From Acidobacteriaceae bacterium (GTDB lineage Bacteria; Acidobacteriota; Terriglobia; Terriglobales; Acidobacteriaceae): a stretch of DNA of 64,000 nucleotides. Of the stretch, positions 4,903 to 56,972 are shown piece after piece. The notes below the pieces were generated by a model. That model was not told where the DNA came from. It ran no database searches and was given only the letters and a program-made list of their open reading frames with translations. The first letter of the stretch is position 1. The number at the start of each line of letters is the position of its first letter. A program made the translations under genes and the position numbers. The DNA lies in the NCBI GenBank assembly GCA_028283655.1, contig JAPWKE010000003.1:2356001-2420000 (forward strand). The letters are read 5' to 3'.

Positions 4903-6510
4903 TTACTTCTTCGTTATCGCTACATCGAACGACCCCATCTTGCCATTCGTTGCATCACGAACCACAAAACGCAGCATCACAGCCTTCGGCGCAGGCTCCG
5001 CCGTAAAGTCGAAGTTTGCGAGCTTCGCTTCATTACGAAGATTCACGCCTGCACGCGCCGTTGCCGATCCATTCTTGGCAACATGCGTCAGCGGCCTGCC
5101 CTTCTTATCCAACGAGACAGCCATCACGGTGACATCGGCCTTCGAAGATCCATCCTCCATCGACTGCCACGTCAGCCCTGGTGCCTGAACATGAATAATC
5201 CATTCATCATTCAGCACCGCAACAGAAGTGTTTCGCTCTACCGTTATATTCAGCCCGTTCAGCCGCTGCGAACTCGCCGCTGCCGTGCTCAAGTCGTAGC
5301 TCAACTCATGCTTGGCGTTGTACGCCGGCACATTGCCGCCATAGTAGCCCTTGCGCGTCGTCACCACAGTGCCAGGCCGCTTGCAAACCACGCGAATCTT
5401 GCGGAACTTCAAAGCATTGTCGCTCTTGTTCGTCGGCGAGTAGCTCATCGTGTAGAACTGATCCGCATAGTTCACGCTCACTTCAATCTGGTGCGTGATG
5501 TTGTTCATGTTGCGGATCACACGGCCACCCGTCACAGAGCTCAGCGTATCGAACCCCGCAGCGCTATCCACAGGATCGATCGGCGCAGAGCCAAGATCGC
5601 CGCTCAACTGAGCGAACGCCATCTGTTGAAAGTCCGTGATCTCCGTCATCGGCGGAGCAGAACTCGTCGGATCAATCGCATACAAAGTCATGCGTGCGTC
5701 GAGCATCTCGTTCGTCACATGCTTGATGGTGTCATCCACTTCGCGATAGTCGGTGTTTGTCAACGACTCAGGATCGAGCGAAGGGAAACCAGCGCCCAGC
5801 CAGATCAGATTCTTACGCCCCGGAATACGGCCGTATACCTGCGTCATCTCCTGCAACGCACGGATCGAAGTCTCCAGGCGAGTGATCGGCCCATTGTCCG
5901 CCTTGCCTTTCATCTCCAGCTCCCACGAGTAACTCACAGGGGCTTTCTTCAGCGACTCTTCCAGCTTGCTACGATCGCGCGTAAATTCCTGCAGCAACTT
6001 GAAGTGGTCCTGATACACCATCAGCAGCGTCGTCGGGTGATTCAGCGCTTCAGGCTGCTTTGCCAGATACTCCGCCATCTGACGGTGCGCAAACGAGCTG
6101 TCAGCAAAATGCGTATTCAACTGATCAAGAACCAGAATGTCGACCGCCGACTGACCGAACGTCGAAGGCTTCGCCGGATCGAATACCTGCGCCTTAGCCT
6201 GCTCCGGAGTCTGCGCATCATCAGGAAGTTGGTGATCCGACGGCTGCTCGAAGTTACGAATCGACTGCGGCTGGTTATCCTCGTAGATATCAAAATCATC
6301 ACGAGTAAGATCAGGGATCGGCTGACCCTTCTTATCGGTGACGACCACGTCCAACACCACCAGGCGCGACGTGACATGGATTGTGCTTCCGCTCGGTGCA
6401 GCAGCCTGCTGCGCCGAAGCCATCCCGGAAGACAACATTAAAAGAATGGCGCCGAGCGCCTGCGCTCTACGCGCTCCAGATAGGTGGGTGCGATTTGTTG
6501 CGATCTTCAA
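4903..6510 (-). CDS. secreted VWFA-related acidobacterial protein (paralogue 2)
   Basis: A 535-residue protein, colinear with its neighbour at 3095-4699 and highly similar along its whole length, so the pair is a tandem duplication. Signal peptide to about residue 33 (ASA|QQ), then VTSRLVVLDVVVTDKKGQP, RDDFDIYEDNQPQ and the VWA-like core with ILVLDQLNTHFADSS and GRKNLIWLGAGF. The TTG start at 6510 follows AGAGG; both copies share LKIAT as first residues, which supports this start. Each copy has its own terminator. Likely an exported protein; whether the metal-ion site is intact cannot be judged by eye. Confidence 0.87.
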   Translation of the reverse strand: MKIATNRTHLSGARRAQALGAILLMLSSGMASAQQAAAPSGSTIHVTSRLVVLDVVVTDKKGQPIPDLTRDDFDIYEDNQPQSIRNFEQPSDHQLPDDAQTPEQAKAQVFDPAKPSTFGQSAVDILVLDQLNTHFADSSFAHRQMAEYLAKQPEALNHPTTLLMVYQDHFKLLQEFTRDRSKLEESLKKAPVSYSWELEMKGKADNGPITRLETSIRALQEMTQVYGRIPGRKNLIWLGAGFPSLDPESLTNTDYREVDDTIKHVTNEMLDARMTLYAIDPTSSAPPMTEITDFQQMAFAQLSGDLGSAPIDPVDSAAGFDTLSSVTGGRVIRNMNNITHQIEVSVNYADQFYTMSYSPTNKSDNALKFRKIRVVCKRPGTVVTTRKGYYGGNVPAYNAKHELSYDLSTAAASSQRLNGLNITVERNTSVAVLNDEWIIHVQAPGLTWQSMEDGSSKADVTVMAVSLDKKGRPLTHVAKNGSATARAGVNLRNEAKLANFDFTAEPAPKAVMLRFVVRDATNGKMGSFDVAITKK

Positions 6511-6647
6511 AATGAGACCTCTATGTACGGTGTCCAAAGTTTAAATGACGTGCAGAAGTCACTGCGAGTTTCACACAAACGTAGAGTAACGGACTAACAT
6601 GACAGTACACAGCCGCAAAGTCTATGTCCGCGGCAGGAGATTGCTGA

Positions 6648-7568
6648 ATGAACCGATCGAAACTTCGGCTGCTGGCACGCCAGGCCGCTGTAGCAACATT
6701 GATGTTTGCACTCGCAACCGAGCCGACCTGGGCATGGGGCCGTGATGGTCATCGCATCACCGCTCTCGTTGCAGAGTCTTACCTGACGCCTTCGGCCAAA
6801 GCCGCCATTGCCGAACTCCTGCACGGTCAACGAATTTCCGACATCGCCTCATGGCCAGATGAAATTCGTTCCAGCCGTCCCGAGACAGGCCCCTGGCACT
6901 ACATCGACATTCCTCGCTCTGCTGATAAGTTCGATCGTGATCGCGACTGCCCCTTGAACTCCAAGGATCCGAAGAGCCCCTGGCGCGACTGTGTCACCGA
7001 TCGCATCAACTACTTCGAAGGCCGCCTCGGCGATGATTCGCTCACTGAGGACCAGCGTGCCGAAGCCCTTAAGTTTCTCGTTCACTTCATTGGGGATATT
7101 CATCAACCGATGCACGCTATCGGTGACGACCGCGGCGGCAACAGCATCCGCGTCAACTTCCTCGGCTCTCCTCAGTGCGGCAACTACAAGTGCAACCTGC
7201 ACGGCGTCTGGGACGAGTCAATCCTCGAGCACCGCAATCTTAGCAACGAGAAGTACCGTGACCTCCTTCTTACGGAGATCAAGGACAACAACTGGCTACG
7301 TATGAGCGGCGGCGAACCGGTTACCTGGGCCAACGTCTCGCATCACTACGCTGTTCTTGCCTACGCACCGAACGGCGCTCTCCTAGACAGCAAGTACGTC
7401 GCAGAAGAGACCAAGGTAATTGATGCTGAACTCGCACTCGGAGGACTCCGTCTGGCTCGAGTCCTGAACCGCATTCTCGGCGACCCAAGCCAGCAGGACC
7501 CGACCCGCCAGCAGGCACCCGCTGTAGCCGCGCCTGCCCCGGAAGCAACACCTGCACCAACCAAGTAG
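6648..7568 (+). CDS. secreted S1/P1-type nuclease
   Basis: A 306-residue protein. The signal peptide appears cut after residue 29, leaving Trp30 as the new N terminus, as in P1 nuclease where the terminal Trp binds zinc. Further zinc-cluster residues are visible: His35 (WGRDGH), the Asp of DIASWPDE, His of GPWHYIDIP, His/Asp/His in FLVHFIGDIHQPMH, and His/Asp in NLHGVWDES. The enzyme should degrade single-stranded nucleic acids or remove 3' phosphates outside the cytoplasm. The last 35 residues are a Pro/Ala/Gln-rich tail. The ATG has AGGAG eight bases upstream. It reads away from the VWFA pair and has its own terminator. Confidence 0.9.
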   Translation: MNRSKLRLLARQAAVATLMFALATEPTWAWGRDGHRITALVAESYLTPSAKAAIAELLHGQRISDIASWPDEIRSSRPETGPWHYIDIPRSADKFDRDRDCPLNSKDPKSPWRDCVTDRINYFEGRLGDDSLTEDQRAEALKFLVHFIGDIHQPMHAIGDDRGGNSIRVNFLGSPQCGNYKCNLHGVWDESILEHRNLSNEKYRDLLLTEIKDNNWLRMSGGEPVTWANVSHHYAVLAYAPNGALLDSKYVAEETKVIDAELALGGLRLARVLNRILGDPSQQDPTRQQAPAVAAPAPEATPAPTK

Positions 7569-7586
7569 TTTCCAAACACATCAAGT

Positions 7587-7623
7587 AAGCGAACGGGCAG
7601 CCTCATAGGCTGCCCGTTCGCTT
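7587..7623 (+). terminator. terminator of the S1/P1 nuclease gene
   Basis: A 16-17 bp perfect stem (7587-7603 with 7607-7623, loop CAT) lies 18 bases after the stop. No long T-run follows, but the stem is very stable. Confidence 0.75.
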
Positions 7624-7670
7624 GCTGGCTACACATCACTGCTTGAGATCAAACACAAACAATCATTGCA

Positions 7671-7702
7671 CAAGAGAGGCGACCCGAAGGCCGCCTCTCT
7701 TG
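7671..7702 (-). terminator. terminator-like hairpin of the TonB-receptor gene
   Basis: CAAGAGAGGC at 7671-7680 pairs with 7693-7702, and inner bases extend the stem. It lies just beyond the stop of the minus-strand gene ending at 7720. The following T-run is poor, so confidence is moderate. Confidence 0.55.
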
Positions 7703-7719
7703 TTTACATTCCACGCACT

Positions 7720-10700
7720 TTAGAAGTGGAGCCGTGCTGCCAACTGAAGCTGACGTGGTGTGTAGGTATAGTTGCTGTTCGAGTTCGTGTAGGTACCGAA
7801 GTTCGGCTGAAGTGTCAGTGTGTTTACAACGCTGTCTACCCCAGAGGAGTTAACGCTGCCCGTATAGCTTAGGTTGTAAGCGGTGCTCTGCACACCAGTG
7901 ACATTTTGATGATTGAAAACATTAAACACTTCAGCAAAGACTTCAAAACGAAGCCGCTCAAGGCCAAGGTGGTTAATATTATTCAGATAGAAGTTCTTAC
8001 TTACACGAATATCAGCCTTATAGGTATTCGGGCGGTGAAACTGATTCCGCTCAAGCCCATCAATACGACCAGAAGTGCCACCTGCGCCGTTAGCGCTACG
8101 AACACCTGAAGCACTTTCTCCTGGATACCCCGAGATATAGGGCGTAAATGCATAGCCGGTTTGCAGCTGCGCAACAGGAGCTAGACGCCAGCCTCCAAGA
8201 GCCATATCTCTCCATCCATGGAAGTGAGTGATCGGAGCATAGCTGAAGGCAACTACACCGCGCTGACGAATATCCAGAGAGCTATTGCCATACTCCTTCG
8301 ATAAATCATTCGGATCAAGAATGTTGAAGTTGGGAACTCCTGTTCCGATGTAGGGGTTTGCGTCTAGGGAATGAGACCAAGTGTAATTGGATAGGAAAGA
8401 AAAACCATTCTTGTAACGCTTGTTGATCTGAATAGCAACGGCGTTGTAATTCGTGTTTACGTTTGAAGAGATCTCGAGAACACGATAATAGTCCGGATCA
8501 ATGCGTGCACCGCGATAGACCTTCACAGGGATTGTGCCACTCTTGAAAGGCGCAGGTAGCCCGCCATGAGGATACGCAACCGCTTTGCTTGCAGGAAAAC
8601 GTGGTGTGTTATTTACAACGTAATTCGAAAGATAGACGCCAGGAACAAATGTTGTCGAACTTGAGGAATACGGAACATACTGACTAAGGCTAAGATTTAC
8701 GTCATTCGCGCTATCCAGCTTACGACCGTACGATCCCATGTAGGTAACCGTTGCCACCCAACCCTTGCCCAGATCCTGCTGAACATCGAGATCCGTTTCG
8801 TACACCTGCGGATTTTCAAGCTTTGAGTTCAAGAACCCGACACTCGGATGCGAGCTTGCCGTCGTTGTATAGCTGGCGCAAGAATGTGCTTGGGCATAAG
8901 TTAGAATGCCAGGGAAAACATTACGGCACGCTGCAGCCACAGATCCATCTGCACTAGGCCCGTAATCAGGATAAACACCAAGGATATTAATCTGAGAGTT
9001 TGGACCACCGGAGTTTTGATAGGTCTGAACAATATTGGCATTCACGATACGGCCAAAATACCAGCCATACCCTCCGCGAACCACCGTCTTACTATTTCCG
9101 AAGACGTTATAAGCAAAACCAAAACGCGGAGCAATATTGTTCCGGTCATCCGGTTTATTGTACGTATTCGGCATATCCGCTTTGGCAACATTCGACTTCA
9201 GGAACGATGCATTTGCGCCGTTTAGGTCCGAATTCGGTGTTGGGTTCATCGGAACGTACTGATACTCATAACGAACGCCAGCCGTCAACGTAAGCTTCGG
9301 TGTAATGCGCCAATCGTCGGTAAAGTAGCCTGCATACTCGCGTGTTGTGAGCAGCTCACCCGCGCCAACCGCGTTCACCTTGCCACTAGCATCGGGAACC
9401 GTAAAGCCCTGGCTGAAGCTCGAGTACAAACCTACGTTGGTATCGCAATATGCAGTTGAAGAAGTAGCTGCACAAGTGGAGCCGTCCTCATTATGGAAAG
9501 CGCCACCACCCGCATAATTATCACCACCCAGATTGATGGTCTTGTGCAAATAATCGCCGATGAAGCTGTAAGCCCAATCGTAGTTATAGGTTCCGTAGCC
9601 GTTGTACAGATTGTTGATGTAATCGCCAACCTTGTTATAGTCCAGCCCCCACTTCATCGTGTGCATGCCATGAGAAAGAGTCATGTCGTCCTTCAGTTGC
9701 AGACGACGTTCATCCGGCAATGCATAACGGTTGAAGAGTGCTGGTGTACCAGCATCGAATCCGCTGGCATCATAACCATAACCAATACTGAGGTCAGGAG
9801 CCGCCGAGTAGCAGGTTCCCTTGGGAGCGGAGCACTCACCTGTTGGCAGAGCATTCTGCAGGCCCAACTCATTGCTAGTCGGACGATTGCCACCAAACTC
9901 CGTTTCCATATCGCGACCGTACTGCGCGAGGAACGTATTCACCAGCGAGTTTGTCAGCACAGAGGTGTAACGGAAGATCGTGACATCCGCCTTCACAAAG
10001 TCATCGCCAAACGAGCCGCGACCATAGAAGTTAGAGGCCTGGGTCTGTGTTCCGTTCGGAGAATCCCAGCGTACGCGGTTGTACTGCAGGCTAATACGAT
10101 TGCGGTCATTGATCTGGAAATCAATCTTCGGGAAGTTAATCGTCTGGTTACCAACGCGCGGAGTCAGACCAAAGAAAGACGACAGAACCTGTAGTCCCTG
10201 GTTGTAATAAGCTGCTGCTTGCTGATAAGGAAGAGCGGATCCAAGCGTGGTATCAGGAGCTATAGCTGCAGCCAGTGCGCAGGCACCGAAGTTGCCCTGA
10301 TACGCAGAACCGGTCGGATACTGAGCAGTGTTCGTACCTGTCGGCGACGACAGGTTCCCAGTAATCGTAAAGCCACCCGAGTTGAAGCTGCCGTTCGAAT
10401 ACGCTGCAATTGGAGCACCAAAATCATAAGTGCCATAGGTATTGCTTGAACGGATGCAGCTCTCGGCAGAGCCAAGGTTCGGCGAAGCCAGGGCGAACAT
10501 GTCATACGGATCAGAGGTGCGAGCAACACCCGGGAAGTTACGCTTCTGCTGATCGAACGCGTAGAACCAGAACAGGCGATCACGCCAAAGGGCACCACCG
10601 ATGCCGAAGCCATACTGCTTGCGCCAGTCCTTCGGTTGAATCGTCTGCGGATTGATGCCTGTCGAGGAATTGAAGTTATAGAGCTGGGTGTACGCGTTTG

Positions 10701-51645: not shown

Positions 51646-52071
51646 TTAGACGTGTTCGCGGCCGCGGAGACGGTCGTACATGTACACGTCGCTGGTGGTT
51701 CCCATCGCTTCGTTGTAGAGCACGAGCGCACCAGCGGCTTCCTTCAGCTCTTCGTTGAAGAGGTGGATGGCTCGGAGCTGATCTGCCGTGGCCGGAATTT
51801 CGAGCTTCGACGTCTTCAGGAACTTCTGGTAGCCGCGATCGAGCAGACTTGCGATCTCGCCGCCGAGCAGCCAGCCGCCCTTGGAGAGTAGGCGGACGGG
51901 TGAGTCCTTCGCCGTGGCGGGAGCGATCTCTGCCGCACAGCCGTATTTCGAGACGCGGCGAGCGCCTGCGGAACGGTTTGCACCTTCTGTCGCGGGTGCG
52001 ACATCAAACTTTTCATTGCCAAGAGCGGCAAGAACTTCGTCGAACGTGGGCTGCTTAATTGCCTTCGCCAT
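51646..52071 (-). CDS. small protein of unknown function
   Basis: A 141-residue protein. The N-terminal half is low in hydrophobic content (MAKAIKQPTFDEVLAALGNEKFDVA); the C-terminal half is helical (SLLDRGYQKFLKTSKLEIPATADQLRAIHLFNEELKEAAGALVLYNEAMG). No signal peptide or catalytic motif. The ATG at 52071 has AAGGAAG nine bases upstream. It converges on rsmI and diverges from cysM. No family recognised. Confidence 0.75.
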   Translation of the reverse strand: MAKAIKQPTFDEVLAALGNEKFDVAPATEGANRSAGARRVSKYGCAAEIAPATAKDSPVRLLSKGGWLLGGEIASLLDRGYQKFLKTSKLEIPATADQLRAIHLFNEELKEAAGALVLYNEAMGTTSDVYMYDRLRGREHV

Positions 52072-52175
52072 CTGCGGAATCTTCCTTATGAACTCTGTGG
52101 GCGCGCGATAAACGCTGCGCACCGATCAGCTACACTCAACTAACTGTCGCACACTTGCGCCGAACGCTTCAAACG

Positions 52176-53174
52176 ATGACTGATTCTGCTTCCAAGCCGC
52201 TTGGCACCGCCCTTCTCGATCGCGTGGGCAACACTCCGCTGATTCGCCTTGACCGCCTGACCGCACACCTGCCCGGAACGCTGATTCTGGGCAAAGCCGA
52301 GTGGGCCAACCCAGGGGGCAGCGTGAAAGATCGCGCCGCTTCTGCGATTGTGGCCGACGCGCAGGCCAAAGGCCTGCTGACGCCGGGAAAGCATCTGCTC
52401 GATGCCACCAGCGGCAACACGGGCATCGCCTACGCGATGCTGGGTGCGGCGCAGGGCTTCCCGGTAACGCTGTGTGTGCCCGCAAACGTGAGCTCCGAAC
52501 GCAAACACATTCTCGCGGCCTATGGCGCGAACATCGTGTGGACCGACCCGGCAGATGGCTCGGATGGGGCGATTCGCATGGCGCGGAAGCTCTTTGCGGA
52601 GCAGCCGGAGAAGTACTTCTACGCCGACCAGTATGGCAATGAGAACAACTGGCGTGCGCATTACAACACCACCGCGAACGAGATCTGGGAGCAGACGGAA
52701 GGGCGCGTGACGCACTTCGTCGCAGGGCTCGGGACGTCGGGCACGTTTGTGGGCACGACGCGCCGCCTGAAAGAGTTGAACCCGGCGATCCAGTGCTACT
52801 CGATGCAGCCGGATTCTCCGTTCAATGGGCTGGAAGGCCTGAAGCACATGGAGACGGCGATCGTTCCGCCGATCTATGACGACAAGCTGGCCGATCGCGA
52901 TATCGCGATGCCGACCGAGCGTGCCTATGCGATGGCCAAGCGACTGGGCCGGACGCAGGGGTTGCTGGTTGGCGTTTCCGCAGCGGCGGCGGTGGCGGTC
53001 TGCGTCGATGTGGCGGAGGAAGAGTCCAAGGCAGGGCGTGAGGCTGTGATCGTGGTGATTCTGCCGGATTCGGCGGACAAGTATCTCAGCGAACGTTTCT
53101 GGTCGGAAGCGGCCGAAGACGAAGCCGCACCCGATATGGTCGACGGCGATCGCTATGTGGGCCAGCGGACCTAG
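52176..53174 (+). CDS. cysM: cysteine synthase of the CysM type
   Basis: A 332-residue PLP enzyme. The PLP lysine is Lys51 in NPGGSVKDRAA; TSGNTGIAYAMLGAAQG binds phosphate or substrate; GLGTSGTFVGTTRRL is the PLP-phosphate loop. Length and Lys position match M. tuberculosis CysM, which adds sulfur from thiocarboxylated CysO to O-phosphoserine. The genes that follow (mec, cysO, moeZ) support this route rather than the sulfide-dependent one. The ATG at 52176 begins MTDSASKP; seven further codons upstream are possible. Only 30 bases separate it from mec. Confidence 0.92.
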   Translation: MTDSASKPLGTALLDRVGNTPLIRLDRLTAHLPGTLILGKAEWANPGGSVKDRAASAIVADAQAKGLLTPGKHLLDATSGNTGIAYAMLGAAQGFPVTLCVPANVSSERKHILAAYGANIVWTDPADGSDGAIRMARKLFAEQPEKYFYADQYGNENNWRAHYNTTANEIWEQTEGRVTHFVAGLGTSGTFVGTTRRLKELNPAIQCYSMQPDSPFNGLEGLKHMETAIVPPIYDDKLADRDIAMPTERAYAMAKRLGRTQGLLVGVSAAAAVAVCVDVAEEESKAGREAVIVVILPDSADKYLSERFWSEAAEDEAAPDMVDGDRYVGQRT

Positions 53175-53204
53175 ATTTTTACTTTACCGATGCAAGGAAT
53201 AGAC

Positions 53205-53639
53205 GTGAGTTTTCTGATCTCTCAAGCTCTCTACAGCGACCTTCGCAAGCATGGCGAAGAGACGTATCCGCACGAATGCTGCGGCATCATCCTCGGCAAG
53301 GGCGATGTGAACGGCACGCATGTTCACAAGCTGATCCGCGCGGGGAATACGCGCGTGGATTCGGCGCATAACCGCTACAACATCGCTCCCGGAGAGCTGA
53401 TGAAGGCGCAGCGGGAGGCGCGGCAGTCGGGGCTGGACATCGTCGGCTTCTACCACTCGCACCCGGACCATCCGGCGCAGTGGTCGCAAACGGATTACGC
53501 CGAAGCGCACTGGTTTGGCTGCGCGTATGTGATTACGGCGGTCGACCACGGACACGCGACCACGACGAACAGCTTCCTGCTGTCGGGGACGTGCGAGGAA
53601 GATAAGCGGTTCGAGAACCAGCCGATTGCGTTTGAGTAG
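53205..53639 (+). CDS. mec: JAMM/Mov34 metallopeptidase, Mec+ type
   Basis: A 144-residue zinc peptidase with an intact JAMM site: Glu24 (PHECCGII), His84 and His86 (YHSHPDHP), then Ser94 and Asp97 (SQTD). Mec+ releases cysteine from CysO-cysteine; relatives (QbsD) also trim carrier tails. The GTG at 53205 was chosen because AAGGA lies six bases upstream; an in-frame ATG at 53190 has no ribosome-binding site. It directly follows cysM and is followed after a hairpin-rich gap by cysO. Confidence 0.92.
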   Translation: MSFLISQALYSDLRKHGEETYPHECCGIILGKGDVNGTHVHKLIRAGNTRVDSAHNRYNIAPGELMKAQREARQSGLDIVGFYHSHPDHPAQWSQTDYAEAHWFGCAYVITAVDHGHATTTNSFLLSGTCEEDKRFENQPIAFE

Positions 53640-53982
53640 GGTTTGAGGCCTTCCGGAGAGATTTTTCACCGGGGAGGTGAAAACTTGAACGCAAAGGACG
53701 CAAAGTTTAAGCGCGATGTACACGAAGGGGCCAGCTGATCAGCTGGCCCCTCTTGCTTTGCCTATTTTCGGGCGTTTGCGGCTGGGGGAAGAAAGTCTGG
53801 AACGCAGAGTGCGCGGAGGACGACGCGTAGAGAACGCAGAGAGAGTTGCGGCTGAGAGGCTTTGCGAGCGACGAGCAGGTCTGTCGCGGCTCTCGGGGTG
53901 AGAAATCATGGATGAGGAGCCGCAGGATGCGGATTGGTTGCATCCGAGACAGAGGCTCGCGCATCTCGTAGAATGGAACGAC
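53640..53982. other. 343-base interval between mec and cysO
   Basis: Contains a perfect eight-bp hairpin TTTTCACC-GGGGA-GGTGAAAA (53663-53683), a terminator (53726-53751), and degenerate GCAGAG/GCGGAGG repeats (53800-53850). A TAGAAT box (53969-53974) ends eight bases before the cysO ATG. No gene seen. The terminator suggests that cysO-moeZ is a separate transcript from cysM-mec. Confidence 0.6.
53726..53751 (+). terminator. terminator after cysM-mec
   Basis: AGGGGCCAGCT (53726-53736), loop GATC, AGCTGGCCCCT (53741-53751), followed by CTTGCTTTG. The whole is a perfect palindrome. Confidence 0.7.
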
Positions 53983-54288
53983 ATGAAGATTCACATCCCC
54001 ACACCGCTACGTGCGTACACCGAGAAGCAGGAAACTGTTTCGGTCGGCGGCACGACCGTGGCCGAAGGGCTTGAGGAGCTGACGAAGGCCTATCCGGCCA
54101 TGCGTGCACACCTCTTCACTCCCGAAGGCAAGCTGCGGAGCTTCGTCAATGTTTATCTTGAAGACGAAGACGTCCGCTATCTCCCGGAGAAGGAAGCAAC
54201 TGCTGTTGCTGCCGAAGCCGAACTCACGATTATCCCCTCCATCGCTGGCGGCTGTTGTAGCCTGCCCGCTGAAGGCTGTTGTCGCTAG
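53983..54288 (+). CDS. cysO: CysO-type sulfur carrier protein with tail after Gly-Gly
   Basis: A 101-residue ubiquitin-like (MoaD/ThiS) protein. The fold is recognisable from VSVGGTTVAEGLEELTKAYPAMRAHLFTPEGKLRSFVNVYLEDEDVRYL to ELTIIPSIAGG. In usual CysO the chain ends with Gly-Gly (89-90 here), whose carboxylate is adenylated and thiolated. Here 11 residues follow: CCSLPAEGCCR, with four cysteines. The carrier should be inactive until the tail is removed, probably by the JAMM enzyme next door. The ATG at 53983 lies eight bases after TAGAAT, suggesting a leaderless mRNA. Confidence 0.87.
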   Translation: MKIHIPTPLRAYTEKQETVSVGGTTVAEGLEELTKAYPAMRAHLFTPEGKLRSFVNVYLEDEDVRYLPEKEATAVAAEAELTIIPSIAGGCCSLPAEGCCR

Positions 54289-54416
54289 CTCCCAGTAGCC
54301 GCGAGAACCCTCAGCAACCCCGCTTCCCTCTGTTCACCATTCATCGCCTGCGCGCACTGAGACAAACGCTTTTACGGCGTTCGGATCAGAGCGAATCGCC
54401 CCACAAAAGGAACGCC

Positions 54417-55646
54417 ATGCCAGCCACGTTTGAAGCACCGACGACCGCCGAGCTGCCGAAGCTCTCTAACGAAGAAATCGCCCGCTACTCGCGGCACCTG
54501 ATCCTGCCGGAAGTGGGCATGGAAGGCCAGCAGAAGCTGAAGGCCGCGAAGGTGCTCTGCGTGGGTACGGGTGGCCTGGGTGCGCCGCTGGCGCTGTACC
54601 TGGCCGCGGCCGGTATCGGCACGATCGGCCTGGTGGACTTTGACGTGGTCGATGAGTCGAACCTGCAGCGCCAGATCATCCACTCGCAGTCGACCGTCGG
54701 CAAGCTGAAGGTCGACTCGGCGGAGATCATGCTGAAGGGGTTGAACAAGAACGTCAACGTCATCAAGCACAATACGATGCTGACCTCGCACAACGCGCTC
54801 GAAATCTTCAAGGATTACGACGTGATCGCGGACGGCACGGACAACTTCCAGACACGGTACCTGGTGAACGATGCCTGCGTACTGACCGGCAAGCCGAACG
54901 CTTATGGCTCGATCTTCCGCTTCGAGGGACAGGCTTCTGTCTTCGCTACGGAAGAAGGCCCGTGCTATCGCTGCCTGTATCCCGAACCGCCGCCTCCGGG
55001 GCTGGTTCCGAGCTGCGCGGAAGGTGGCGTGCTCGGCATCCTGCCGGGTCTTGTCGGCGTCATTCAGGCGACGGAAGTGATCAAGCTGGTGCTCGGCATC
55101 GGCGAGCCGCTGGTTGGCCGTTTGCTGCTGGTGGACGCGCTGAACATGGGCTTCCGGACACTGAAGCTGCGCAAGAACCCCGAGTGCCCGGCCTGCGGCA
55201 CGCGTGAGATCAAGGAACTGATCGACTATGACCAGTTCTGCGGAATCGCACCGCCAACCTCGACCGGACCGCTTGAGGTTTCCTCGCATGGCTCTGTCGA
55301 CCAGGGCGCGAACGTCGTCGACGGCATTCCGCAGGTGACGGTGGAAGAGTACAAGGCGCGTCTGGACAAGGGCGACAAGCCGTTCCTGCTGGATGTGCGT
55401 GAGACGCACGAGTACCAGATCTGCAACCTGGGCGCGCCGCTGATTCCGGTAGGCCAGGTAGGTTCGCGACTGAACGAAATTCCGGTTGGCAAGGATGTAG
55501 AGATTCTCGTCCATTGCAAGTCGGGCGGGCGTTCGCAGAAGGCGGCGCTGGAGCTGAAGGCTGCAGGCTTCACGAACGTGAAGAACCTTGCGGGCGGTAT
55601 TACGGCATGGGCGGATCGCATCGATCCCAGCGTGCCAAAGTACTAA
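54417..55646 (+). CDS. moeZ: adenylyltransferase/sulfurtransferase MoeZ
   Basis: A 409-residue fusion: an E1-like ThiF/MoeB domain (residues about 15-270) and a C-terminal rhodanese domain (about 300-405). The ATP loop is VGTGGLGAP (49-57), with LVDFDVVDESNLQRQ for nucleotide and metal. CYRCLYP and ECPACG give the four zinc cysteines; PSCAEGGVLG carries the conserved Cys. Cys367 in HCKSGGRS is the rhodanese sulfur carrier. It adenylates and thiocarboxylates CysO, and perhaps MoaD. AAAGGA precedes the start. Confidence 0.95.
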   Translation: MPATFEAPTTAELPKLSNEEIARYSRHLILPEVGMEGQQKLKAAKVLCVGTGGLGAPLALYLAAAGIGTIGLVDFDVVDESNLQRQIIHSQSTVGKLKVDSAEIMLKGLNKNVNVIKHNTMLTSHNALEIFKDYDVIADGTDNFQTRYLVNDACVLTGKPNAYGSIFRFEGQASVFATEEGPCYRCLYPEPPPPGLVPSCAEGGVLGILPGLVGVIQATEVIKLVLGIGEPLVGRLLLVDALNMGFRTLKLRKNPECPACGTREIKELIDYDQFCGIAPPTSTGPLEVSSHGSVDQGANVVDGIPQVTVEEYKARLDKGDKPFLLDVRETHEYQICNLGAPLIPVGQVGSRLNEIPVGKDVEILVHCKSGGRSQKAALELKAAGFTNVKNLAGGITAWADRIDPSVPKY

Positions 55647-55659
55647 GTTGTTTTGCAGT

Positions 55660-55692
55660 AAAAGCGGCAGCCGGAAACGGCTGCCGCTTTTT
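55660..55692. terminator. terminator of moeZ, also facing the phosphodiesterase gene
   Basis: A perfect 14-bp stem (55660-55673 with 55678-55691) with a GAAA loop followed by a T-run; the left side has AAAA. Confidence 0.93.
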
Positions 55693-55718
55693 TGTGTCTG
55701 CGCCTTTCGGAGATTCGG

Positions 55719-56972
55719 TCAGTGCTTCAAGGCGGGTTTCAGCGGCTTGAGACTGCCGTCGGTCTTGCCGGGCTTCAGGTTGAGTATCTTTGCGACGAAG
55801 TCGTAGACGTCGACGTTATCGAAGCTCGGCAGCTTGATGCCGGGCTGTACGTCGGGGCCTTCGGCGTAGAAGATCGCCTTCATCTCAGGCGTCGCGTGCG
55901 CGTTGAAGCCGTGGCTGCCGATGTACCCGTGGCCGTGGTTGGAGGGATGCCACGAGACGCTGTACGGAGCGTTGGGGATGACGACAGGGTCACCTTCGCG
56001 CGGGTTGGTGCGGAAGTGCAGCTCCTTCGGCGTGTTTTTGCGGCGATAGACGCGGAAGCGAGGGTCGTTCTTCGCCGCGAGCTGCTTGTAGATGCGCTGC
56101 GTCTCGGCCTCGGACGAAGGGTAGATGTAGGGGCCGGAGGTGCGGACGTTCTTGATGTCGACGAGGGTATCGAGCACGACGGGCGTGGGGTCGAGCTTGA
56201 TCATGCCGTGGTCGGCGGTGACGATGAGATCGACGGGGAGGCCGGTGGCTTTGAGCTTTTCGCGGAGCTCGCCGATGAGTTCGTCGACGTGATGGACGGC
56301 CTCTTTGGCTTCGGGAGAGTCCGGGCCGAAGTGGTGCCCGGCGTCGTCGGTGTTGGAGTAGTAGAGCGTGAGGAAGTGCGGGCGCTCGGCCTCGGGGAGT
56401 TGCAGCCACTGGATGATCTGCGCGACGCGTTTGTAGTCGTCCAGCTTGCCGTCGAAGTGCAGGTAGAAGGACGGGCGCTTTCCGCCGATCTCAGCCTCAG
56501 AGCCCGGCCAGAAGAAGCAGGCGGAGCGCATTCCCTGCTCTTCTGCGAGCACCCAGAGTGGAGTGCCGCTGTACCAACTGCCGTCGCTGTTGGTTTTGGA
56601 GTCGGCGAAGAGGTAGCGCTGCTTGCGGGTGGGGTCCCAGAACTCCATACCGACGATACCGTGGTGCTCGGGGCGGAGACCGGTGACGAGCGTGTAGTGG
56701 TTCGGGAAGGTCACCGAGGGGTAGGACGGCAACATGCCGTCGGGCGTGCTGGCGCCGTCGGCAGCCATCTCGTCGAGATGCGGCGCGCCGTGCTCGCGGG
56801 CGTAGTCGTAGCGGAAGCCGTCGAGCGAGACCATGACGACGTAGTGCTTTGCCAGTGTCGCGGCGGCGTTTGGTGGGTTTTCCACGTGAACGACCGGCGT
56901 GACGTCCTGCGCAAAAACGGCACTGCTCGCCATCCCGGTGAGCAGTGCGATGGCGAGCAATGAGCGATGCAT
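55719..56972 (-). CDS. secreted alkaline-phosphatase-superfamily phosphodiesterase (NPP-like)
   Basis: A 417-residue protein with a signal peptide (LLTGMASSAVFAQ). It belongs to the type I phosphodiesterase/nucleotide pyrophosphatase family: Asp in MVSLDGFRYD, the nucleophilic Thr in YPSVTFPNHY, NTDDAGHHFGPDSPE with Asp and His, TADHGM with Asp and His, and the last His in GSHGFNAHA. All metal and nucleophile positions look intact, so it should cleave phosphodiester or pyrophosphate bonds outside the cytoplasm. AGGAG lies before the ATG. It starts 21 bases after the hom stop and may share its transcript. Confidence 0.9.
   Translation of the reverse strand: MHRSLLAIALLTGMASSAVFAQDVTPVVHVENPPNAAATLAKHYVVMVSLDGFRYDYAREHGAPHLDEMAADGASTPDGMLPSYPSVTFPNHYTLVTGLRPEHHGIVGMEFWDPTRKQRYLFADSKTNSDGSWYSGTPLWVLAEEQGMRSACFFWPGSEAEIGGKRPSFYLHFDGKLDDYKRVAQIIQWLQLPEAERPHFLTLYYSNTDDAGHHFGPDSPEAKEAVHHVDELIGELREKLKATGLPVDLIVTADHGMIKLDPTPVVLDTLVDIKNVRTSGPYIYPSSEAETQRIYKQLAAKNDPRFRVYRRKNTPKELHFRTNPREGDPVVIPNAPYSVSWHPSNHGHGYIGSHGFNAHATPEMKAIFYAEGPDVQPGIKLPSFDNVDVYDFVAKILNLKPGKTDGSLKPLKPALKH

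Follow-up and report, generated by a model that had tools for sequence, protein, structure and literature searches.

Gene Organization of the cysO Locus

The window, that is, the whole stretch of 64,000 nucleotides analysed here from the genome of an Acidobacteriaceae bacterium, contains four genes in the order cysM-mec-cysO-moeZ, all on the + strand. The genes and the features within and between them are as follows.

52155-53174, + strand: cysM-like cysteine synthase (PLP enzyme), the first gene of the cluster (Pfam PALP, E = 3e-66)
53190-53639, + strand: mec-like JAMM metallopeptidase, the presumed trimmer of CysO after Gly-Gly (Pfam Prok-JAB, E = 2.9e-24)
53983-54288, + strand: cysO, sulfur carrier with an encoded tail (Pfam ThiS, E = 6.4e-9, above the cut-off)
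54247-54252, + strand: codons of Gly89-Gly90, the expected mature C-terminus, which align with the final two residues of 3dwg_C
54253-54285, + strand: tail CCSLPAEGCCR, with TGT for all four cysteines and homologous tails in relatives
54277-54282, + strand: TGT TGT run, one codon ahead of the stop, a candidate ribosome-stalling site
54289-54416, + strand: cysO-moeZ spacer of 128 nt, a candidate regulatory region
54417-55646, + strand: moeZ-like E1 adenylyltransferase with a rhodanese domain, the presumed target of regulation (Pfam ThiF, E = 1.5e-80; Rhodanese, E = 1.3e-13)

The top NCBIfam match of the first gene was cysM (TIGR01138, E = 3.2e-100, under the family cut-off). For the mec product, the closest solved chain was 2kcq_A (E = 1.5e-22), and the product contains HSHPDHPAQWSQTD, which we take to be the JAMM consensus. 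The preliminary description of this DNA had placed a JAMM peptidase about 340 bases upstream of the carrier gene; the Prok-JAB match confirms this, and 343 bases separate the end of the JAMM gene, at 53639, from cysO. The genes for CysM, Mec and the E1-like MoeZ all adjoin cysO, which is the gene context of a carrier system.

The frame at 53983-54288 (+) encodes a protein of 101 residues in which residues 86-90 are SIAGG, followed by CCSLPAEGCCR and then TAG. The earlier statement that the carrier runs past SIAGG (residue 90) into this tail is thus borne out by the translation. Starting from an alternative in-frame ATG, at 53908, the protein would have 126 residues, but the start at 53983 is likelier because the homologues begin with MKIHIP. 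The closest solved chain was CysO of M. tuberculosis (3dwg_C, E = 2e-13), which stops at the Gly-Gly aligned with that of the window CysO, so the window tail departs from the best studied CysO. As Gly-Gly is internal in the encoded protein, a free C-terminal Gly-Gly is absent unless the tail is removed.

A second carrier, ending in GGSR, was seen in the same genome (L105, positions 5054-6654 and 7088-9871; C3 near 1546000). By eye, a threonine-synthase-like gene overlaps the gene of this carrier and a metH-like gene is close by; the locus is possibly a thiocarboxylate route to homocysteine.

Encoded Tails in Related Genomes

We gathered 236 cysO loci and retained 205 non-redundant ones, namely 159 window-type cysO genes, 23 CysO-MoeZ fusions, 22 paralogues and L180, which is interrupted by N and was excluded from the 159. 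Before counting, we removed partial matches, loci that gave no cysO match, and duplicates, meaning loci with the same core end and tail; the set may still include nearly identical genomes from two collections.

We found residues past Gly-Gly in 157 of the 159 cysO loci, with lengths from 1 to 39, and only L116 and L199 stop at Gly-Gly. Both length and sequence of the tail are hypervariable across the set. In 11 of the 159 loci the tail is exactly one cysteine, so that the protein ends in Gly-Gly-Cys. The window tail had been described as much longer than the two-residue tail of QbsE; against a range of 0 to 39 residues in the set, its length does not stand out. A comparison of relatives' tails, proposed in the same description, indicated that the tail is a lineage trait and that near relatives carry similar ones: the tail is CCSLPAAGCCRS in L002 (90% identity) and CCSPLAAGCCR in L003 (86%). 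These two relatives rule out a sequencing error as the cause of the tail. Cysteine made up 258 of the 1221 tail residues in the 159 loci, compared with 1.5% in 628 background ORFs from 112 loci, and this richness is therefore not a matter of chance.

In the 23 fusion genes, cysO is joined in frame to moeZ. Across the phylum, 33 matches outside the window's family had E below 1e-20, and 29 of them lay in open frames of at least 483 aa; CysO and MoeZ were confirmed in one frame for 11 of the 14 loci L306-L319 (loci L297-L319 were left out of all counts, apart from this fusion check of L306-L319). Where a free Gly-Gly is required, the carrier would have to be released from such a fusion by cleavage. 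A Mec/JAMM gene was present in all 26 genomes searched, 21 of which had been chosen since no mec lay beside cysO in the examined stretch, and mec was found upstream of cysO in 128 of the 154 loci having at least 1 kb of upstream sequence.

The earlier claim that the carrier needs its tail removed is backed by this comparison (157/159 cysO genes with residues past Gly-Gly, 23 moeZ fusions, Mec in 26/26 genomes), which supports the view that CysO has to be trimmed to expose Gly-Gly. Trimming by Mec is likely the first half of the answer. Judged from the compared genes, a tail to be trimmed is the norm in this lineage, and the linker of a former CysO-MoeZ fusion may be its origin. There are also precedents. 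Iyer et al. proposed in 2006 that JAB peptidases process such carrier fusions (PMC1779556, in the part available). According to the accessible part of the MoaX report, this fused MoaD-MoaE is cut after Gly82 by a protease that was unidentified in that study (PMC4326299). Capped carriers with a JAMM peptidase are described as established in Streptomyces in the accessible text on PtmS2 and PtmS3/PtmS1 (PMC6006322).

In L048, L053, L067 and L068, the DNA past the Gly-Gly codons is alike (CCGCACGGGC...) even though the stop codon is placed differently, which may point to conservation of this DNA at the nucleotide level, as DNA or as RNA.

Codon Usage of the Cysteine Runs

A run, defined as at least two adjacent Cys codons, occurred in 58 of the 159 tails, and the other 101 had none. 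Within runs, the Cys codons were TGT 164 times and TGC 17 times, and isolated tail cysteines used TGT 37 times and TGC 40 times. In moeZ of the same loci, the corresponding numbers were 65 and 1139. For other two-fold codons with a pyrimidine ending, the T-ending share in the 58 run loci was 25% in the CysO body and 24% in moeZ. When loci were grouped at 80% identity, 24 of the 27 clusters with a run had a TGT majority, one had a TGC majority, and two were equal.

Over the 159 loci, the tails (3663 nt) contain the word TGTTGT 89 times in frame and 0 times out of frame, which indicates that these words are read by ribosomes. Past the stops, 9 were counted in any frame in 8797 nt. The paralogous carriers are also Cys-rich past Gly-Gly, with TGC 53 times and TGT 14 times (22 loci), so a Cys-rich tail by itself does not bring UGU with it. 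Adjacent identical residues had identical codons in 91 of 106 Cys pairs compared with 21 of 60 other pairs, so slippage alone is a poor cause of the runs. On these codon counts, the Cys pairs appear to fit codon selection better than thiol selection.

Seventeen of the 22 paralogous carriers start their tail with Cys-Cys, mostly written TGC (paralogues in L084-L101). Several long paralogue tails end like CSCCSYCGQEECICGD, and such ends are a possible residue-level Cys cluster. A scan of the window's own genome for TGTTGT-N(0-9)-TAG gave 133 matches, compared with 325 for the reversed control, and was therefore uninformative.

Position and Phylogenetic Distribution of the Runs

The last run lies 0-3 codons from the stop in 54 of the 58 run loci, and exactly 1 codon from it in 36, and its distance from Gly-Gly varies across loci. 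For the 43 tails of at least 5 codons, the run-stop distance was 2.8 codons against 4.0 in shuffled tails (p = 1e-4). On a CysO+MoeZ tree of 181 rows, the run state changes at least 22 times; the run is therefore not one inherited accident. No Cys run was found in any of the 23 CysO-MoeZ fused genes.

Of the 23 loci from the window's genus, 19 carry a run and 4 lack it; close relatives without it include L018, L019, L020 and L023. In 17 of the 19 run loci, the run closes with TGT TGT; TGC is found in this place only in L021 and L022. When the 19 loci were compared, run codons were unequal in 34 of 342 comparisons, every one of them due to L021 or L022; for other two-fold codons, 608 of 1982 comparisons were unequal. 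(An earlier version of this comparison used 16 hand-picked loci and omitted L016, L021 and L022; it was repeated with all 19.) In L021 and L022, an antisense gene parts cysO from moeZ or hides moeZ, and the TGC in these two cases is a hint, and no more, of relaxed codon selection. L083 also keeps its run; in these three loci moeZ is more than 1.2 kb off or unseen, with an antisense gene between.

An antisense gene between cysO and moeZ, or directly past cysO, was observed in L020, L021, L022 and L083, and by eye it resembles an alpha-galactosidase (PPMGWNSWNHF motif). TGA is the stop of cysO in 3 of the 58 run loci compared with 38 of the 101 non-run loci (median p = 0.22 in phylogenetic pairs), so that after pairing an avoidance of TGA in run loci is only suggestive.

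Cysteine-Ending ORFs Upstream of cysD/cysH-Family Genes

We also examined the regions upstream of PF01507 (cysD/cysH-family) genes, using one locus for each genome with a match (29 loci from 31 genomes). Short ORFs ending in Cys runs, with the run within the last five codons, were present in 9 of the 29 loci in one 150-nt window, where 0.085 were expected.

L240, L246, L247, L248, L249, L250, L252, L253 and L254, positions about 1195-1268, on the strand of the gene: polycysteine short ORFs

Their Cys codons were TGT 28 times and TGC 9 times. The PF01507 gene of L246, the one gene tested, is cysD. By eye, a terminator-like hairpin with a T run lies between ORF and gene in L246, L250 and L260; L260, with a polycysteine ORF and this hairpin, is omitted by the five-codon rule. 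All nine loci belong to the window's genus, of which 19 genomes were searched, and the region upstream of the window's own cysD (L255) has no Cys run. From these ORFs, cysteine leaders of the ordinary type seem to exist in the window's genus.

Search for an RNA Switch between cysO and moeZ

Several candidate switches were tried, and none gained clear support. The pattern for intrinsic-terminator attenuation of moeZ is not general: it occurred in 4 of the 50 run loci and in 3 of the 64 others (1.3 and 3.0 in shuffles). Unmasking of the Shine-Dalgarno sequence did not stand out either, as the predicted opening on stalling is small and alike in run (46) and non-run (41) loci. Two further associations were lost in phylogenetically independent pairs: a wider cysO-moeZ gap in loci with a run (Fisher's test, p = 7e-5; median p = 0.69 in pairs) and a Rho-type C>G region past the stop (raw p = 9e-8, 50 vs 59 loci; median p = 1 in pairs).

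The stretch 54253-54419 folds no more stably than its shuffles (z = −0.13). Within it, the run strand 54274-54285 pairs with 54301-54308 in a weak stem, and across the 58 run loci such stems between run and downstream strand are weak in general (mean z = −0.31, p = 0.03). An Rfam search of 52000-56500 gave no match, and a shared fold was absent in MAFFT/RNAalifold analyses of five hand-picked clusters.

At 54365-54416, the elements AACGC / GCGTT and GGCGTTC / GAACGCC could form alternative pairings, of which the second would cover the moeZ Shine-Dalgarno sequence. This arrangement was not seen in L002, and the stretch as a whole has no unusual stability. L131 has about 100 nt extra with inverted ends, inserted between the first bases of the last Arg codon and the CTAG before ACAAC. 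This insert breaks a stem at the cysO stop that is common to the relatives L128, L129 and L134.

A Possible Leader Peptide at the End of cysO and Other Explanations

The end of cysO may be a cysteine-responsive leader peptide that lies within a structural gene and acts on moeZ; we put the chance of this at about even. CysO would be made with a disposable C-terminal extension, and Mec would cut past Gly-Gly and free the carrier. The extension would thus be free to drift in length and sequence, and its cysteines would be tolerated because Mec presumably removes them. In many Acidobacteriaceae, this free space appears to have been taken by a run of the rare codon UGU that is set one to three codons ahead of the stop. 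Under a shortage of charged tRNA-Cys, ribosomes near the end of cysO would stall at this run. The stall would alter the fate of the downstream mRNA and probably raise the expression of moeZ, whose product loads CysO with sulfur. Candidates for the RNA step are Rho-dependent termination, masking of the Shine-Dalgarno sequence, or another process.

A broader form of this explanation is more tentative and falls somewhat short of an even chance. Here, the protease-disposable tail would be a built-in cysteine sensor, with the UGU codons at the end of cysO serving as a leader for moeZ, the carrier's own loading enzyme. Trimming by the JAMM peptidase would keep the carrier end intact whatever the tail or the rescue tag of a stalled ribosome. 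Proteolysis would have lifted the constraint on the peptide and, on repeated and independent occasions, Acidobacteriaceae would have turned the space into regulatory code.

Two features of an attenuator are present, namely a Cys codon run near the stop (54277-54282 in the window) and a cysteine-pathway gene directly downstream (moeZ, after 128 nt; L021, L022 and L083 are exceptions). A dedicated short leader ORF is absent, and the run ends a structural gene of 101 codons. As this ORF is missing and a switching structure was not found, we compare the cysO end with attenuators in its way of working and do not assign it to their class. The in-frame, stop-anchored TGT runs, the codon bias, the 22 or more changes on the tree, the run-free fusions and the cysD-type ORFs all strengthen the case for a leader. 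It is weakened by the lack of a conserved terminator or Shine-Dalgarno switch, the unstructured spacer and the failed phylogenetic pairing. The run-free state of 101 of the 159 loci, the retention of the run in L021, L022 and L083, which have no adjacent moeZ, the absence of a Cys run at the window's own cysD, and the restriction of the nine cysD-type matches to the window's genus weaken it too. Stalling on cysO under cysteine shortage could also lower CysO itself, which counts against a leader.

Other explanations have to be weighed against the same data. The UGU run could slow ribosomes at the end of cysO for some other purpose, such as tuning of CysO output, termination, re-initiation or co-translational trimming by Mec. 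We consider this unlikely, even though the codon evidence suits any codon-level role and the run is kept in the three loci without an adjacent moeZ. A published parallel is sinR, a structural gene with a serine sensor that works at the codon level, according to the accessible part of that paper (PMC3862929). However, the polycysteine ORFs before cysD/cysH-family genes (9/29 loci) point to control of a downstream gene, the run occurs in 0 of 23 fused genes, and less CysO under cysteine shortage would presumably be counterproductive. The preliminary description had instead proposed that the cysteines act as residues and that a metal- or redox-sensing tail controls CysO trimming. Cysteines are indeed paired at both ends of the window tail and abundant in tails generally (258/1221 residues), and the paralogue tails with ordinary codons (TGC 53 : TGT 14, 22 loci) suggest that residue-level Cys tails may exist nearby. 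Yet the pairs are written with UGU (164:17 in runs vs 65:1139 in moeZ), in frame only and next to the stop; their position past Gly-Gly is not fixed, and they are missing in 101 of the 159 loci, including congeners and several close relatives. On account of this codon bias, frame and position, we set the metal or redox reading aside as improbable.

Mec cuts the CysO-cysteine adduct in the cysteine pathway. The first Cys past Gly-Gly might be its recognition residue, with Gly-Gly-Cys as a mimic of that adduct. Cysteine is first in the tail in 56 of the 159 loci and forms the whole tail in 11, and a single-Cys cap has been published for PtmS3, as the available text states (PMC6006322). Another residue comes first in 103 loci, the fused genes start mostly with AP, TP or SP, and stop-anchored runs with UGU bias are left unexplained, so that this idea has a slim chance as the sole account; it may be true alongside codon reading of the last run. 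We give as little credence to a neutral tail, a linker remnant of a former CysO-MoeZ fusion in which Cys runs arose through slippage of TGT repeats. Its enrichment is for cysteine alone, on which 27 clusters agree; codons are identical in 21 of 60 other repeats vs 91 of 106 for Cys; and TGT persists in 17 of the 19 congeners with a run. These facts outweigh the hypervariable length and sequence of the tail and the frequency of fusion outside the family (29/33 matches in long frames; 11 of the 14 loci L306-L319), which a neutral tail would fit.

Comparison with Known Systems

If the end of cysO does act as a leader for moeZ, amino-acid attenuation and the proteolytic maturation of ubiquitin-like carriers would be joined in a new way. 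A leader peptide would then need no ORF of its own, as a discarded part of a real protein would suffice. It would also be a warning that codons should be checked before cysteine-rich tails are called metal or redox sites. Among the matches listed from open-licence PubMed Central, none described a cysteine leader from Acidobacteria or one that lies within cysO.

In the SecM system, a ribosome stall at the end of one gene regulates the gene that follows, and the stall acts through the SecM peptide sequence. The cysO end would be similar in that an upstream coding end controls the next gene; it differs in that its codons point to amino-acid supply. The carrier QbsE reportedly bears a short tail past Gly-Gly that is trimmed by the JAMM enzyme QbsD. 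QbsE/QbsD resembles the present system in having residues past Gly-Gly, a JAMM gene in the genome and an E1-like partner, and so do PtmS2 and PtmS3/PtmS1, as far as the accessible part of PMC6006322 describes them. The QbsE and PtmS caps have one or two residues, whereas cysO tails have 0-39 with patterning at the coding level. MoaX (PMC4326299) and the proposal of Iyer et al. (PMC1779556) likewise concern, in the portions available, the release of a Gly-Gly carrier that is fused at its C-terminus; the partner of MoaX is MoaE and here it is MoeZ.

A uORFC-8-2 motif before cysS in Rhodobacterales has two tandem Cys codons and was read as ribosome-mediated attenuation in the accessible part of the report (PMC8632094). 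The cysO tail shares the tandem Cys codons, but uORFC-8-2, as described there, is a short uORF with a terminator, and UGC is dominant. Seliverstov et al. (2005, PMC1262725) described cysteine leader peptides in Actinobacteria with runs of Cys codons by the stop and no terminators and, in the text available, suggested a Rho step. Polycysteine ORFs in mycobacteria were reported by Canestrari et al. (2020), whose work is represented here by the citing papers PMC9094748, PMC9031893 and PMC13236596 in part. As far as these partial sources go, both groups of leaders share with the cysO loci the stop-near Cys runs ahead of cysteine-pathway genes, the lack of a conserved terminator and a suggested step of Rho or translation. 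Unlike the actinobacterial leaders, which in the same sources are dedicated short ORFs, the run in the cysO loci is the terminal part of a functional carrier gene within an operon, and UGU is dominant.
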